A stretch of 64,000 bases of DNA from NCBI RefSeq assembly GCF_022763305.1, contig NZ_JALEGT010000072.1:1-64000 (forward strand), read 5' to 3'. Below, piece after piece: positions 4,509-57,903 of the stretch. The position numbers and the translations under genes are program-made. Below the pieces are notes generated by a model. That model worked only from the letters and a program-made list of their open reading frames with translations, was not told the DNA's origin and ran no database searches. Numbering within the stretch: the stretch's first letter is position 1; every line of letters begins with the position of its first letter. The stretch is from Marivita sp. (GTDB lineage: Bacteria; Pseudomonadota; Alphaproteobacteria; Rhodobacterales; Rhodobacteraceae).

Positions 4509-4679
4509 TGGCTGCTCTCCGCCGACCGTGGTGATGCAATTTAGCCATCCGTAAGGATTTTTAGGTCTCAATATTGCTGGCGTGGCGGAGTGATTCGCAG
4601 AATTGAGTTGGCGCAAACGGAAAAAAGACACATAATGGCGAAAAAAACATAATTGAGAGCAGTACAAGGAACACACTTC

Positions 4680-5384
4680 ATGTCGAAAATCGCCCTTGTG
4701 GACGATGACAGGAATATCCTGACATCGGTCGCGATCACCCTCGAGGCCGAAGGTTTCGAAGTCGAGACCTATAACGACGGACAGGCCGCGCTGGACGCGT
4801 TCAACAAGAAGATGCCGGACATGGCTGTCTTCGACATCAAGATGCCGCGCATGGATGGCATGGACCTGCTTCAGCGGGTGCGCCAGAAATCCAAGATGCC
4901 CGTCATTTTCCTGACGTCCAAAGATGACGAGATTGACGAGGTGCTCGGTCTGCGCATGGGGGCGGACGACTACGTCAAGAAGCCGTTCTCGCAGCGTCTT
5001 CTGGTCGAGCGCATCCGTGCCCTACTGCGGCGGCAGGATGCCATTTCCGGCGATGCGGCCGGTGGCGAGGTCGAAGAGACCAAGCTGATGGTGCGGGGCA
5101 ACCTGACAATGGACCCGCTGCGCCATTCCGTGTCCTGGAAAGGGCAGGATGTGTCGCTCACGGTTACGGAATTCCTGTTGCTGCAGGCGCTGGCACAGCG
5201 CCCCGGCTTCGTCAAATCCCGCGATCAGCTGATGGATGTGGCCTATGACGATCAGGTCTATGTCGACGACCGCACCATCGACAGCCACATCAAGCGTCTT
5301 CGCAAGAAAATGCGCTCGGTCGACAATGATTTCTCGGCGATCGAAACGCTTTACGGGATCGGGTACCGTTACAACGAAGAGTGA
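4680..5384 (+). CDS. chvI: response regulator ChvI (OmpR/PhoB family)
   Basis: Receiver ([20 protein letters not shown]) plus winged helix; followed by ChvG and hprK. Confidence 0.92.
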
Positions 5385-7102
5385 CCATGGCACTGGTTGA
5401 AGGTGTGACCCACGGCAAGGACGGCGGGCGCAAGGATGCGGATGTTGTGCTCGGGGACGATTGGGTCGCCCCCGACAAAACAGTCGAGTCCGAAGTGCGC
5501 AGCATCCGTGAAAAGCGCGGATTGTTTTCTCTCAACAAATCGCCGCTGACCCGCAAGATCATCACCTTCAACCTGGTCGCCCTCAACTTTCTGGTCGCGG
5601 GTATTCTGTTTCTCAATTCCTCGCGGGACACACTTGCCGAACAAAAGGCCACGTCCGTCCGTATCGAGGCGGAACTGATCGCGAATGTATTCGAGGCGCA
5701 GGCGCTGGAGGCGCAGTCCGTCAACCTTGGCGTCGGCGAAGGCATCGACGTTGCACGGACCCTCGACACGCTCGACATGCGCCCAGGACGCGAAGTTTTC
5801 GTGTTCGACGCGGCCCGGTTTCTTGTCGGGAATGTCGGATCGACAGCCGGTCTTGGTGCTGGTGTGTCAGCTGCCGAAAAACCGACGGTGATCTCGGATT
5901 TTCTACTGTCTGTCTGGAGCAGCGTGTCGTCCGTGTTTCAGACGGATGCCGGCCTGCAACCCCTGACACTGGAAGACATTCTGCGCCGCCAGATCGAAGA
6001 GACCGATCCGACGGTCACACGGATCGAGCGGTCCGAAGGCCCCAACGGTGAAACGATCTTTACCGCGCTGAGCCCGATCCAGGTGGAAAGCGGCGTTGCA
6101 GGGACCATTGCTCTTGTCAGCTATGCGCCGGAAATCGACGCGGCGGTGAGGCTGGAACGCGAAAACGTGCTGCAGATGTTCGTGATCGCCACACTGGTGT
6201 CGATTGGTCTGAGCCTCGTTCTGGCCTCGACCATTTCGAACCCCATCTCGAACCTCGCGGATGCCGCCGAGGTCGGGCGTGACCGCAATCGCCGGAACGT
6301 GTCGTCGGGCCGTATCCGAATTCCGGACCTGACGGCCCGCCCTGACGAAATCGGGCGTCTGTCCGGGGCGCTGCGCGGCATGGTCGCCGCGCTCTATGAC
6401 CGGATCGACGCCAACGAACAGTTCGCTGCTGACGTTGCGCATGAGATCAAGAACCCGCTTGCCTCGCTGCGGTCAGCCGTGGGCACGTTGCGCCTTGCCA
6501 AACGCCCGGATCAGGTCGAACGCCTGCTTGATGTCATCGACCATGATGTCCGCCGGCTGGACCGGCTGGTCAGCGACATCTCGAACGCATCGCGGCTGGA
6601 CAGCGAACTGGTCAAGGAAGAAGAGGCCGAGTTCAATCTTCTCGACATGCTGCGCAATATTGCGCAGTTCCTGGGTGAAGATGCGAAACGTCAGGGGATC
6701 GAATTCATTTCGGACCTGCCGGATCGGCCCATCCTTGTGCATGGGCTCGAGGCACGGCTGGCGCAGGTTTTCGTCAATCTCATCACCAACGCGATCAGCT
6801 TCTGTGAAGACGGCGACGCCATTCGCATCTGGGCGCGCCGCCGCGAGAACCGTGTGCTGATCGTGGTCGAGGATACAGGTCCAGGTATCCCGGACGAGGC
6901 ATTGACCAAGATCTTCAAACGCTTCTACTCGCAACGGCCTGAAACGGATTTCGGCAACAATTCCGGCTTGGGCCTCGCGATCTCCAAGCAGATCGTCGAA
7001 GCGCATGGTGGTGTGATCTGGGCGGAGAATATCCGCCCGACCGAAGCGGACGCCACATCCGAACCGCTTGGCGCGCGCTTTGTCGTGGGCCTGCCGCTTT
7101 AG
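5381..7102 (+). CDS. chvG: sensor histidine kinase ChvG
   Basis: H-box [20 protein letters not shown] boxes; overlaps chvI; possible start ATG 5387. Confidence 0.92.
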
Positions 7103-52083: not shown

Positions 52084-53481
52084 TCAGAAGGCCGCGCGGG
52101 CAGAGGCGACAGGGATGCCATGTTGAGCGGACTGGGCCTGCGCAATCTCGATCCGGTTTCGACCGTTCCGCTTGGCCTCGTAAAGCGCAGTATCTGCGGC
52201 GCGCCTGAGATCCATCGTTGAAACGCGTTCGGATCGGGAACGGAGTGCAATCCCGATGCTGATCGTTGCACGCACATGAGTGCCGTTTTCGATGGCGGTT
52301 GCACCGCCTGCCACCGCGTCGCGCAGCCTTGATGCGACGGCGCGTGCCTGACCCGGTCGGACATCCGGCAACACGATCAGGAATTCTTCGCCGCCATACC
52401 GCGCGATGAAATCGCCGTCGCGCAGGCTCGATTTCATGATCTGGGCGATACGCGAAAGAACCATGTCGCCGGCTGAGTGACCATGGTTGTCGTTGATGGA
52501 CTTGAAGTGATCGATGTCCGCGATCAACACGGCCAGCGCGCGCGGTTCTTCGGCCAGTGCCCGATCCGTTCGCGCAAGGTACTCCTCCATTGCGGTGCGG
52601 TTGTTCAACCCGGTCAGTCCGTCCACATAGGCCTTCCGCTCAAGATCGGTGGTCGCCCGGCGCTCGCGGTCGGCATCACGCCTGCGACGGGCGAGGCGCT
52701 GGATCCGCAGGACAAGCTCGGTCGCGCTGACGGTTGTGGGGACCTGATCATGTGCACCGAGATCCAGCGGCGAGGCCCCGGTTGCCGCGCAGTCGGTGAC
52801 AAAAAGGATGCGGCTGTGCTGGCTGACGGGATGGGTCAGCAGGGCGGCAAGGGTTTCACGAGCCTCATCGGTTTGCTGCGTTTCCCACAGGACGAAGACA
52901 TCGGCGTCTGGATGGGGCTCGCGCCGTGCGACATGCGCCGCCACGCGCCGGATCTCGATCCCTGAGTCCGCAGGGTCCGGTGCCGACATCGGCGCGGACA
53001 GGGTGCCCGTCACGAAACAGGCCACGGTCTTTGGTGCAAAGTCCACAGTCGGTTCGGACAAACCCGAAGCAATATGCGCTCCGGATCGGGCGAGATACAG
53101 GCCGGAGCCTTGCTGCAACCGCATGAAGCTGCGCATCCGGGCCCTGAGGTCGGCTGACTCGGCCGACATCTCGATCACGTCATGCGCTCCGTCCACCAGC
53201 GCGCTGACCCGTGCGGACTGGTTTTCGCGTTGCACGGCGACGACAAGCGTCGTGCCCTGGGTGGAGGGCGTGCTGCGCATGAGCTTGCAGAACTGGCGCA
53301 ACCGAAGGCCGGGGAGGTCATGTGCAAGGATCACGACTTCGGGTGCTTCCTTGCGGATCAGGGTAAGCCCTTCTGCCAGCGACTCGGCCAAATCTACGGG
53401 ATAGGCGGTGGTGTCGAGCTTTGCGCGCATCTGGATGCGGCGATGGCTCATGGCGTCGATGATGAGAACGGACCTTGGCAC
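52084..53481 (-). CDS. PleD-like diguanylate cyclase (degenerate REC + GGDEF)
   Basis: VLIIDAMSHRR...; RDGDFIARYGGEEFLIVLPD (I-site RxxD and GGEEF). Confidence 0.88.
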   Translation of the reverse strand: MPRSVLIIDAMSHRRIQMRAKLDTTAYPVDLAESLAEGLTLIRKEAPEVVILAHDLPGLRLRQFCKLMRSTPSTQGTTLVVAVQRENQSARVSALVDGAHDVIEMSAESADLRARMRSFMRLQQGSGLYLARSGAHIASGLSEPTVDFAPKTVACFVTGTLSAPMSAPDPADSGIEIRRVAAHVARREPHPDADVFVLWETQQTDEARETLAALLTHPVSQHSRILFVTDCAATGASPLDLGAHDQVPTTVSATELVLRIQRLARRRRDADRERRATTDLERKAYVDGLTGLNNRTAMEEYLARTDRALAEEPRALAVLIADIDHFKSINDNHGHSAGDMVLSRIAQIMKSSLRDGDFIARYGGEEFLIVLPDVRPGQARAVASRLRDAVAGGATAIENGTHVRATISIGIALRSRSERVSTMDLRRAADTALYEAKRNGRNRIEIAQAQSAQHGIPVASARAAF

Positions 53482-53572: not shown

Positions 53573-53857
53573 ATGTCGATTTCTCGCGACCGCGCAGAAC
53601 AGATCGCCATCAAGGCCATCGTCTGGCTTGCAGGCAATGACGACTTGTTGCCGGTTTTCATGGGCTCTACCGGCGCGGACGAAGCGGTGTTCCGTGAGGG
53701 CCTCGCAAAGCCCGAATTTCAGGCCTCCGTTCTGGATTTTCTGCTAATGGACGATGCTTGGGTGATTTCCTTCTGCGACACGGAAGGCATCCCCTACGAT
53801 CACCTCATGCAAGCGCGGGCAGCGCTTCCCGGTGGTCAGCAGGTGCATTGGACATGA
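53573..53857 (+). CDS. DUF3572 family protein
   Basis: AIKAIVWLAGNDDLLPVFMGSTG...VLDFLLMDDAWVISFC. Confidence 0.85.
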   Translation: MSISRDRAEQIAIKAIVWLAGNDDLLPVFMGSTGADEAVFREGLAKPEFQASVLDFLLMDDAWVISFCDTEGIPYDHLMQARAALPGGQQVHWT

Positions 53858-54564
53858 CGCCAGCCGATCCGCAGACAATCGAGGCGATTCTCTTCGACAA
53901 GGATGGCACGCTTTTCGACTTTGGGGCGACGTGGAACGCCTGGGCCAAATCGCTTCTGCTGCGTCTTGCCGAGGGCAACGAGGCGCGTGCGGCAGCGCTG
54001 GGGCAGGTGATCGGTTTCGACTGGGCGGCAGGCGTGTTCAACGCGGACAGCCTGGTGATCGCAGGCACGCCCGACGAAGTGGTCGAAACATTGTCGCCCG
54101 CCTGTCCGACACTGTCGCGGGCAGAGCTTCTTGCCCTAATCAACGAAGAAGCGGCCGCCGCACCCATGGCTCCAGCTGTCCCCCTGGCGCCGTTGCTGGA
54201 TCGTTTGATCGCTGCCGGACTGCGTCTTGGTGTGGCCACGAATGATGCCGAAGCGCCCGCTTTCGCCCATCTCGATTCCGCCGGCGTGCGGGACCGATTC
54301 GCGTTCATCGCAGGATCGGACAGCGGTCACGGGGCAAAGCCCGAACCGGGTCAGCTGCTGGCCTTCTGTTCCGCCGTCGGTGTCACGCCGGACCGGGCGC
54401 TGATGGTCGGGGACAGCACGCACGACCTGATCGCGGGGCGCGCTGCCGGGATGCGGACCGTCGCGGTCCTGACCGGTCTTGCCGGACGCGCCGAGCTTGA
54501 GCCCTTTGCCGATCTGGTCTTTCCGAACATCGGTCATCTTGCAGACTGGCTTGGTCTGCACTGA
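53854..54564 (+). CDS. HAD family hydrolase (phosphoglycolate phosphatase-like)
   Basis: AILFDKDGTLFDFGATWN; MVGDSTHDLIAGRAAGMRTVAVLTG. Confidence 0.92.
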   Translation: MTPADPQTIEAILFDKDGTLFDFGATWNAWAKSLLLRLAEGNEARAAALGQVIGFDWAAGVFNADSLVIAGTPDEVVETLSPACPTLSRAELLALINEEAAAAPMAPAVPLAPLLDRLIAAGLRLGVATNDAEAPAFAHLDSAGVRDRFAFIAGSDSGHGAKPEPGQLLAFCSAVGVTPDRALMVGDSTHDLIAGRAAGMRTVAVLTGLAGRAELEPFADLVFPNIGHLADWLGLH

Positions 54565-54663
54565 TCGCCGACGAAAAGACCAAAAGCGACCGCATGAGTC
54601 GTGTTCCGGCAGGATAACCCGTCTCTGCGATGCCTAGCTAAAGTGGCAACGCAGGAGAATGCC

Positions 54664-56223
54664 ATGACAGAGGCCATCACACGCAAACGCAGGAGCGGAG
54701 GGCGGTCTGGACATGCCGTGCGCCGCGGGTCGTCGGTGATCGAACAGCTGCCTTGGAGCCTGCCGATCAACATCGACCGCCCGACAGAGCCTCTCAGCGA
54801 AGAAGGTGTGGCGCGGGTTCACGATGCGGCCATGATCATTCTCGAAGAGATCGGGATCGAATTTCTGAATCCCGAGGCGGTGCGCGTTCTCAAGGACGCT
54901 GGCTGCACTGTTGACGGCGAAAACGTACGTATGGGACGCGATTTCGTGATGGAGTGGGTGGGCAAAGCGCCCCGCTCGTTCACTATCACCCCGCGCAATG
55001 TGGACCGGAAGATCGTTGTCGGAGACGGGCATATCCTCTTTGGCAACGTGTCGTCGCCGCCCAATTACTGGGACATGGAAATGGGCCGAAAGGTGCCCGG
55101 CACGCGCGAGATGTGCCGCAATTTCCTCAAGCTGTCGCAGTATTTCAACTGCATCCACTTCGTTGGCGGCTACCCTGTCGAACCGGTCGATATCCATGCC
55201 AGCGTCCGCCATCTGGATGTGCTCTATGACAAGCTCACTCTGACCGACAAGGTCGCGCACGCCTATTCGCTGGGCAAGGAGCGTGTCGAGGACGTGATGG
55301 AGATGGTGCGCATCGCCGGTGGTCTGTCGCACGAGGAATTCGACGCCAGCCCGCGCATGTACACCAACATCAACTCGACCTCGCCGCTCAAGCATGACCA
55401 TCCGATGATGGACGGCTGGATGCGCTGCGCCGCGCGCGGGCAGGGGTGCATCGTCACGCCCTTCACCCTTGCCGGGGCGATGGCGCCCGTCACGATGGCG
55501 GGGGCTGTCGCGCAATCGCTGGCGGAAGGTCTGAGCGCCATTGTTCTGGCCCAGATCATCAACCCCGGTGCGCCCTGCGCCATCGGCACCTTCACATCGA
55601 ACGTCGATATGAAATCCGGCGCGCCGGCCTTTGGCACACCGGAATACATCCGCGCCACGCAAATGACCGGCCAGATGGCCCGCTTTTACGGTCTGCCGCT
55701 GCGATCCTCGGGCGTCTGTGCGGCCAACGTGCCGGATGGGCAGGCGATGTGGGAAACCGAGCACAGCCTCTGGGCCGCCATCCAGTCGGGCACCAACCTT
55801 GTCTACCACGCCGCCGGGTGGCTCGAAGGCGGGCTGATCGCCAGCCCCGAGAAATTCGTCATGGATTGCGAGGTGATCCAGCAGTTGATCCGCTACATGG
55901 ATCCGGCGATCTGCGACGTCAGTGATGACGGTCTGGGCCTCGAGGCGATCCGCGAAGTGGGCAGCAACGGACATTTCTTCGGCACCAAACACACGCAGGA
56001 ACGCTACACGACGGCGTTCTATCAACCCTTCCTGTCCGACTGGAAGAACTACGAGGCCTGGGAAGCTGCGGGCAGCATCTGGACGCCGGAACGGGCCCAT
56101 GTGATGTACAAGGCCATTCTCGAGGAATTCGAGGCGCCGCCGATGGATGAAGCCATCCACGAAGAGCTGCTGGCCTTCGTCGAACGCCGCAAAGCCGAAG
56201 GCGGCGCGCCAACGGATTTCTGA
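54664..56223 (+). CDS. trimethylamine methyltransferase (MttB) superfamily protein, non-pyrrolysine
   Basis: 519 aa with no internal UAG; EEIGIEFLNPEAVRVLKDAGCTVDGENVRM; TPFTLAGAMAPVTMAGAVAQ. Confidence 0.92.
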   Translation: MTEAITRKRRSGGRSGHAVRRGSSVIEQLPWSLPINIDRPTEPLSEEGVARVHDAAMIILEEIGIEFLNPEAVRVLKDAGCTVDGENVRMGRDFVMEWVGKAPRSFTITPRNVDRKIVVGDGHILFGNVSSPPNYWDMEMGRKVPGTREMCRNFLKLSQYFNCIHFVGGYPVEPVDIHASVRHLDVLYDKLTLTDKVAHAYSLGKERVEDVMEMVRIAGGLSHEEFDASPRMYTNINSTSPLKHDHPMMDGWMRCAARGQGCIVTPFTLAGAMAPVTMAGAVAQSLAEGLSAIVLAQIINPGAPCAIGTFTSNVDMKSGAPAFGTPEYIRATQMTGQMARFYGLPLRSSGVCAANVPDGQAMWETEHSLWAAIQSGTNLVYHAAGWLEGGLIASPEKFVMDCEVIQQLIRYMDPAICDVSDDGLGLEAIREVGSNGHFFGTKHTQERYTTAFYQPFLSDWKNYEAWEAAGSIWTPERAHVMYKAILEEFEAPPMDEAIHEELLAFVERRKAEGGAPTDF

Positions 56224-56290: not shown

Positions 56291-56887
56291 ATGCACGGTC
56301 TCATCTTTCGCACGCTCGAAGCCTTTGTCTCGGATGTTTTTGGTCCGGACCACTGGGTGCGGGCTGTGGCCCTGGCCGACCTGCCTGTCACCTCGTTCGA
56401 GGCGATGCTGCAATATGACGCCGGGTATTTCCCCAGCTTGCTTGAGGCATGTGTCACGGTGCTGGATCGACCCGGGTCCGTGATCCTCGAGGATCTGGGG
56501 GCCTATCTCATCATTCATCAGAACCATGCTTCGGTGCGGCGTCTGATGCGGTTCGGCGGCGATACATTCGCGGAACTTCTGCAGTCCCTTGGCGATCTGC
56601 CTGACCGGACCCGCCTCGCGGTTTCTGGTCTGGACCTGCCAAGCATCCTTGTGCAGGAAACCATACCGCAAAGCTTCACGATCCAATGTGCGGACAATCC
56701 GATGGGGTTTGGGCACATCATGGTGGGATTGCTGCGCGCGATGGCCGATGACTACGGAACGCTTGCCCTGCTTGACCATCGCGGCCTGCGGAACGGGGCC
56801 GAGATCATCGAGGTGCAAGTCATCGAAACCGCCTTTGCCGATGATCGCGGCTTTTCATTGTCGGTTGCCCATGGGGCACATCACTAA
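56291..56887 (+). CDS. H-NOX (heme NO-binding) family protein, apparently degenerate heme site
   Basis: MHGLIFRTLEAFVSDVFG start; MGFGHIMVGLLRAMADDYG; followed by HNOBA-GGDEF gene. Confidence 0.82.
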   Translation: MHGLIFRTLEAFVSDVFGPDHWVRAVALADLPVTSFEAMLQYDAGYFPSLLEACVTVLDRPGSVILEDLGAYLIIHQNHASVRRLMRFGGDTFAELLQSLGDLPDRTRLAVSGLDLPSILVQETIPQSFTIQCADNPMGFGHIMVGLLRAMADDYGTLALLDHRGLRNGAEIIEVQVIETAFADDRGFSLSVAHGAHH

Positions 56888-57903
56888 TGATCGCCGCACC
56901 TGCCCTCTTGCACGCCATCCGTCCGCTCCATGTCTGCATCGGGCCAACCGGTCATATTCGGCAAGTCGGCAAAAGCTTCTCAAAGCTTGGCATAAACGAT
57001 CCAACCGGCTGCCGGTTTCTCGAAGTGTTCGAAATCCTGCGACCCGCCCGACCATCCTCCATGTCGGACCTGCGTCGCCTGACCGGAGAGGTCCTGCGCC
57101 TGCGCCTTCGGCAGGAACCCGAGATCGGCTTCCGGGGTCTGGTGATCGACGACGAGGCACAGGGCTTGATCCTCGATCTGTCGTTCGGCATCGCCGTGGT
57201 TGATGCGGTGCAGCGCTTTGGCCTCACGGCGCAGGATTTTGCGCCCGGCGATCTGGTGATGGAACTGTTGTTCCTGCAAGAGGCCAAATCCAGCGCAATC
57301 GCAGCCTCTTTCAGTCGCAACGCGCGGCTGAACGGGGCGCGGCTCGCCGCTGAAACCGATGCAATGACCGATGGTCTCACAGGGCTGCACAACAGGCGCG
57401 CGCTCGACGCGGCGCTGGCCCGGCTTGGACAATCAAATACCGAATATGCGATCCTCCACATGGATCTCGACCGCTTCAAGCAAGTCAACGACACGCTGGG
57501 TCATGGCATCGGGGACAGTGTTCTCAAACGGGTTGCCCTGATCCTGCGCAGCCACACGCGGCAGGACGATCTGCTGATCCGAGCGGGTGGGGACGAATTC
57601 GTCATCGTGTGCCCGGGCCTGACCGACCACCTGCGCCTGACAGAGCTGGCCATCCGTTTGATCGGTGACATCTCCGAACCGGCGCAGATCGACGGACAGG
57701 ACATCACGATCGGGGCCAGCATTGGCATCGCCGTGTCTGCCGCAACGGCGCGTTGTGATCCCGTGACCCATCTCTCTCGTGCCGACGTGGCGCTCTATGC
57801 CGCCAAGAGGTCAGGCCGGGGGCAATACCGCTTCTGGTCCACCGATATGGGCGAGTGCCTTGCATCGCTGGATCTCGAGGACGCTCAGCCAAAGGCCATG
57901 TGA
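56887..57903 (+). CDS. HNOBA-like N-terminal domain + GGDEF diguanylate cyclase
   Basis: PLHVCIGPTGHIRQVGKSFSKL...FGLTAQDFAPGDLVMELLFLQEA; RQDDLLIRAGGDEFVIV. Confidence 0.87.
   Translation: MIAAPALLHAIRPLHVCIGPTGHIRQVGKSFSKLGINDPTGCRFLEVFEILRPARPSSMSDLRRLTGEVLRLRLRQEPEIGFRGLVIDDEAQGLILDLSFGIAVVDAVQRFGLTAQDFAPGDLVMELLFLQEAKSSAIAASFSRNARLNGARLAAETDAMTDGLTGLHNRRALDAALARLGQSNTEYAILHMDLDRFKQVNDTLGHGIGDSVLKRVALILRSHTRQDDLLIRAGGDEFVIVCPGLTDHLRLTELAIRLIGDISEPAQIDGQDITIGASIGIAVSAATARCDPVTHLSRADVALYAAKRSGRGQYRFWSTDMGECLASLDLEDAQPKAM

Follow-up and report, generated by a model that had tools for sequence, protein, structure and literature searches.

What can an H-NOX protein without heme ligands do beside a diguanylate cyclase (DGC)? 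The question is raised by a gene pair of Marivita sp. (assembly GCF_022763305.1), located in the 64,000-nucleotide stretch of contig NZ_JALEGT010000072.1 that is called the window here. An initial annotation from the sequence alone had described the pair as an H-NOX apparently without heme-binding residues, overlapping a GGDEF gene by 1 nt. The overlap (TAATG) and the coordinates of both ORFs agreed with the sequence, and the overlap suggests translational coupling of the two genes. The order of genes in the window is HAD, MTTB, H-NOX, DGC, with the following features.

52084-53481, minus strand: PleD-like GGDEF gene (GGDEF search of the genome)
53758..54564, plus strand: HAD-family hydrolase (Pfam); the listed start may be too early
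54601..56223, plus strand: MTTB-family methyltransferase, directly upstream of the H-NOX gene (Pfam MTTB, 717 bits)
56291..56887, plus strand: H-NOX (HNOB-fold) protein without heme ligands, 198 aa (Pfam HNOB, AF2, Foldseek)
56600..56602, plus strand: codon CCT of Pro104, which aligns with the axial heme His, His105 of Nostoc (Ns) H-NOX (phmmer and MAFFT alignments)
56687..56701, plus strand: C133-A-D-N-P137, replacing the heme-propionate motif YxSxR (alignments)
56885..56889, plus strand: TAATG, 1-nt stop/start overlap of the H-NOX and cyclase genes (sequence)
56887..57903, plus strand: diguanylate cyclase HNOBA(PAS)-coiled coil-GGDEF, 338 aa (Pfam, family profile, AF2)
56887..57363, plus strand: HNOBA-like PAS and coiled-coil linker, cyclase residues 1-159 (family profile, AF2 secondary structure)
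57361..57822, plus strand: GGDEF domain of the cyclase (Pfam, active-site columns of homologues)
57559-57570, plus strand: RxxD I-site in the GGDEF domain of the partner cyclase
57586-57600, plus strand: GGDEF motif in the same domain

The H-NOX fold is kept without the heme ligands

The first ORF matched the Pfam profile HNOB (PF07700) with 65.3 bits and an E-value of 8e-18 at a gathering score of 25.5, which confirmed its identity as an H-NOX, and it aligned over its full length with the Nostoc H-NOX Alr2278. An AlphaFold (AF2) model from 58 homologues had a mean pLDDT of 90.9. The best PDB match of the model in Foldseek was 2o09, the Nostoc H-NOX, with TM 0.80/0.86 and an rmsd of 2.4, followed by the domain of sGC beta-1. 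Thus structural modelling, too, indicates that the H-NOX fold is kept.

In three alignments, phmmer and MAFFT among them, Nostoc His105 fell on Pro104, and no other His came to stand at the proximal site in any of them. The loss of the proximal His seen in the initial annotation therefore stands, but Gly as the replacing residue is ruled out by all three alignments; Gly101 is located three residues earlier. Nostoc YQSTR fell on CADNP with C133, D135 and P137 at the YxSxR positions, so that the motif is absent as had been claimed. Both canonical heme-binding features are missing from the window protein, and its proposed heme independence is well supported as far as a sequence can predict it.

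The partner is predicted to be an active-type diguanylate cyclase

The HNOBA-like domain ascribed to the partner was not borne out by its single sequence, which scored 17.8 bits with HNOBA (PF07701), under the Pfam threshold of 23.4, but it was recovered by a profile of 53 partner relatives, which matched residues 208-384 of sGC beta-1 (PAS and coiled coil) with an E-value of 1e-6 and the Nostoc H-NOXA domain 2p04 with 2e-5. In the AlphaFold model of the cyclase, an N-terminal domain with mixed alpha/beta structure in PAS-like order is followed by a long helix from 123 to 159 and a GGDEF domain, and the whole model retrieved mostly PAS-GGDEF and GGDEF entries in Foldseek. The HNOBA/coiled-coil region, residues 1-159, is presumably the docking site of the H-NOX. 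The GGDEF domain scored 139.4 bits in Pfam. Its GGDEF motif, active-site residues and RxxD I-site were invariant among the 53 aligned homologues, in line with the intact domain and I-site read earlier from the sequence. The motifs thus predict a diguanylate cyclase of the active type.

The window H-NOX is the sole HNOB gene of its genome, and a canonical H-NOX which might act as the sensor was not found elsewhere in it. The genome contains three GGDEF and two EAL genes. Two of the GGDEF genes are located in the window, 3.4 kb apart, while the third matches GGDEF weakly and adjoins an EAL domain. Of the diguanylate cyclase genes two are strong, and the partner of the His-less H-NOX is one of these. 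A count of PleD-like neighbours was dropped because the query also matches the GGDEF domain of the partner. As for sources of NO, the search for NirK gave nothing over the cut-off and that for cytochrome d1 a weak match in this genome. NosP is a FIST protein; two FIST-domain genes (G000 C55:5729-6316 and C8:53995-54552) may encode the proteins that really sense NO in this organism.

Heme ligands are absent from most members of a Rhodobacteraceae clade

Of the 249 genomes sampled from the same family, 182 had HNOB genes. The first alignment contained 126 distinct H-NOX sequences, to which class-wide sequences were added, and the tree was computed without the heme-ligand columns. Among the family matches, the sampling took in those of about 73 bits or more and the window itself. 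A single clade of 98 sequences (SH-aLRT 99), 17 loci of which came from the window protein as a query, adjoined ligand-bearing Nostoc-type H-NOX. None of the H-NOX genes of other families, from 13 genomes of the class sample, was placed in this clade; among them, L144 was unalignable at the His position, and L141, a fragment with His and YSSER, did not enter the tree.

The residue at the His position was Pro in 72 members, His in nine, Asn, Ser and Gln in four each, Thr and Arg in two each and Gly in one, with at least 23 changes within the clade on the best, weakly resolved tree. The Tyr of YxSxR was found in none of the 98. Separately, in the canonical clade linked to kinases, one H-NOX (L027 of genome G087, HNOB frame at about 1383-2037) has an intact YxSxR and a Gln at the His position, apparently a separate loss of the axial ligand.

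A gene for an HNOBA-like and a GGDEF domain was located directly downstream of the H-NOX gene in all 98 loci. The GGDEF and the RxxD motif were each present in 97 of the partners, and a stop/start overlap like TAATG is possible in 68 members. The partner cyclase of Marivita lacus (L035, about 4597-5610) has GGDEC in place of GGDEF. Further upstream, the order HAD, MTTB, H-NOX, DGC recurs in Phaeobacter sp. G2. Of 93 clade loci, 63, about two thirds, had an MTTB gene and 54 a HAD gene.

Outside the clade, ligand-bearing H-NOX on adjoining branches precede an HNOBA-GGDEF-EAL gene (L147) or HNOBA-histidine kinase genes (L146, L148 and L149). Because these ligand-bearing neighbours also pair with HNOBA, the pairing is most likely older than the loss of the heme ligands. 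The supported clade of 98 sequences with a fixed HNOBA-GGDEF partner, the placement of the H-NOX of Dinoroseobacter shibae in it (see below), the dN/dS of about 0.1 and the location of two of the three GGDEF genes of the genome in the window are new here.

Selection acts on the H-NOX

Variable heme-ligand columns, such as those of S136 and R138 in the 87th and 93rd entropy percentile, and the several residues at the His position would be expected if the H-NOX gene had lost its function and were drifting. Yet dN/dS of the window H-NOX was 0.07-0.19 with 13 relatives of the Marivita group, dS being near saturation in most pairs, and 0.14 and 0.09 in the closest pairs. In addition, 27 residues of the H-NOX hardly vary within the clade but are seldom found outside. 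Many of these are charged and located on helices (E67, D68, R83, R84, R87, R106, R149, D153 and D154); F88 and Y155 also belong to them. The ORFs are intact beside the cyclase in all 98 loci, and deletion of hnoX has a phenotype in Paracoccus denitrificans (PMC5588039). Decay is thus extremely improbable, and a pseudogene is ruled out by dN/dS and conservation. Conservation appears to be aimed at the fold and a docking surface rather than at heme ligation. The coupling to a cyclic-di-GMP enzyme, which had been suspected to outlast the loss of the heme features, holds clade-wide and under purifying selection.

The locus belongs to the published Group 5

A 2022 review defined a Group 5 of H-NOX seeded with P. 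denitrificans, in which less than 10% keep the His, mostly replaced by Pro; there is no conserved Cys, the neighbourhood figure includes GGDEF, HAD and MTTB, and the question of how these proteins sense anything is raised (PMC8738867). The window locus has the Pro and all three kinds of neighbours, and the best conserved Cys column of the clade reaches 59%. It is placed by these features and by alignment with the P. denitrificans homologue, which has Pro at the His site and RRLLRFGG, MADDYG and LPxR in common with the window protein. Nothing distinguishes the latter from Group 5; thus the locus is a member of a published group and its kind is not new. Sensing by Cys/zinc redox chemistry of the Vibrio cholerae type was ruled out, as the clade has no conserved Cys.

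The H-NOX of P. denitrificans and of Rhodobacter sphaeroides have been reported to be without the His (PMC5588039). P. denitrificans HnoX/DgcA (Pden_3719/3720) resembles the window pair in the His-less H-NOX and in the overlapping GGDEF gene with an N-terminal HNOBA-like region, and differs in that HnoX is 32.5% identical to the window protein and its genes are located on a second replicon. Deletion of hnoX led to less and loss of the cyclases to more biofilm, and an inhibition of DgcA by HnoX was proposed (PMC5588039); c-di-GMP was not quantifiable in this organism (PMC12582929).

The genome of D. shibae DFL 12 is among those sampled (G035), as identified by a 2926-bp piece of plasmid pDSHI01 with a 100% match and identical coordinates, and L100, being its sole HNOB gene, was taken as Dshi_2815. 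It is a member of the clade with the same operon order as the window. In contrast to the window protein it keeps the His (DDLHDR), and the Arg ends a CIWHR. The literature describes it as an NO sensor with heme, by which Dgc1 is inhibited (Table 4 of PMC8846402; PMC7232146). The clade thus covers a reported heme sensor together with many proteins without heme ligands. At the site of the former Ser136, eight of the nine His keepers carry Trp or His, while 6 of the 72 Pro members have an aromatic residue or His (Fisher 8e-7). Because this covariation corresponds to one independent pair on supported branches, we take it as a lead only.

Alternative ligands

The listing of the D. shibae H-NOX as a heme NO sensor (PMC8846402) and the stimulation of P. 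denitrificans biofilm by NO (PMC5588039) would fit a relocation of heme ligation with NO sensing kept, for which His2, His76 or Cys133 come into question. His2 occurs in 91 of 98 members, against Tyr or Lys at this site in ligand-bearing H-NOX; His76 is found in 71% and Cys at 133 in 59% of the clade, so that neither is fixed. However, eight of the nine keepers of His105 also possess His2, which hence is no replacement for His105. The propionate-holding YxSxR is gone from all clade members, the D. shibae protein has retained its His, and the effect of NO in P. denitrificans persists in hnoX and dgc mutants (PMC5588039). We consider such a relocation rather unlikely.

The emptied hydrophobic pocket might take up some other small ligand that sets the activity of the cyclase: a lipid, a different tetrapyrrole or a metabolite connected with the methyltransferase. 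At the positions which we take to line the pocket, Ns Trp74, Pro118 and Met144, the clade is uniform and aliphatic with Leu (98 of 98), Pro (98 of 98) and mostly Val, respectively, and the MTTB gene adjoins about two thirds of the loci. Yet uniform aliphatic residues fit a collapsed, ligand-free core as well, and a ligand-binding signature was not identified in the clade. A ligand of this kind is conceivable, with the odds against it. A wider version has a slightly better, still tentative standing: the clade may have swapped heme for a non-heme ligand or a protein signal at the emptied pocket, controlling one of few cyclases, while a minority of the D. shibae type, with His and an aromatic residue at the old Ser position, would have kept sensing through heme.

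A probable heme-independent subunit of the cyclase

The reading we prefer, and hold to be reasonably probable, is that the H-NOX of the Group 5 H-NOX-DGC operon of Rhodobacteraceae is a heme-independent, most likely inhibitory regulatory subunit of the cyclase. The locus can be regarded as related to soluble guanylate cyclase, but split. Both have the order H-NOX, HNOBA (PAS and coiled coil), cyclase; unlike soluble guanylate cyclase, the window system consists of two separate polypeptides, with a GGDEF domain in the place of the class III cyclase and c-di-GMP as the product. The H-NOX domain in the alpha subunit of soluble guanylate cyclase is not known to bind heme.

In this mechanism the H-NOX would dock on the HNOBA/coiled-coil region of the cyclase, similar to the region onto which the H-NOX signals in sGC. 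Without the axial His and without YxSxR, the window protein cannot use a classical Fe-His/NO switch, and control is predicted to be independent of heme. By analogy with P. denitrificans HnoX/DgcA and D. shibae H-NOX/Dgc1, the H-NOX most likely restrains the cyclase; this direction is suggested by the mutant phenotypes of P. denitrificans and by D. shibae. The restraint may be constitutive and dose-dependent, with translational coupling keeping the subunits matched, or it may answer to another signal, received at the emptied pocket or at the interface.

The H-NOX without the His is the usual form among the sampled Rhodobacteraceae, and the database name 'heme NO-binding' is probably wrong for most such proteins. 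Since His-less members and a reported heme NO sensor share the same kind of partner, the role of heme is testable by exchanging one residue between related proteins. His-less H-NOX are paired with a main c-di-GMP synthase of these common marine bacteria.
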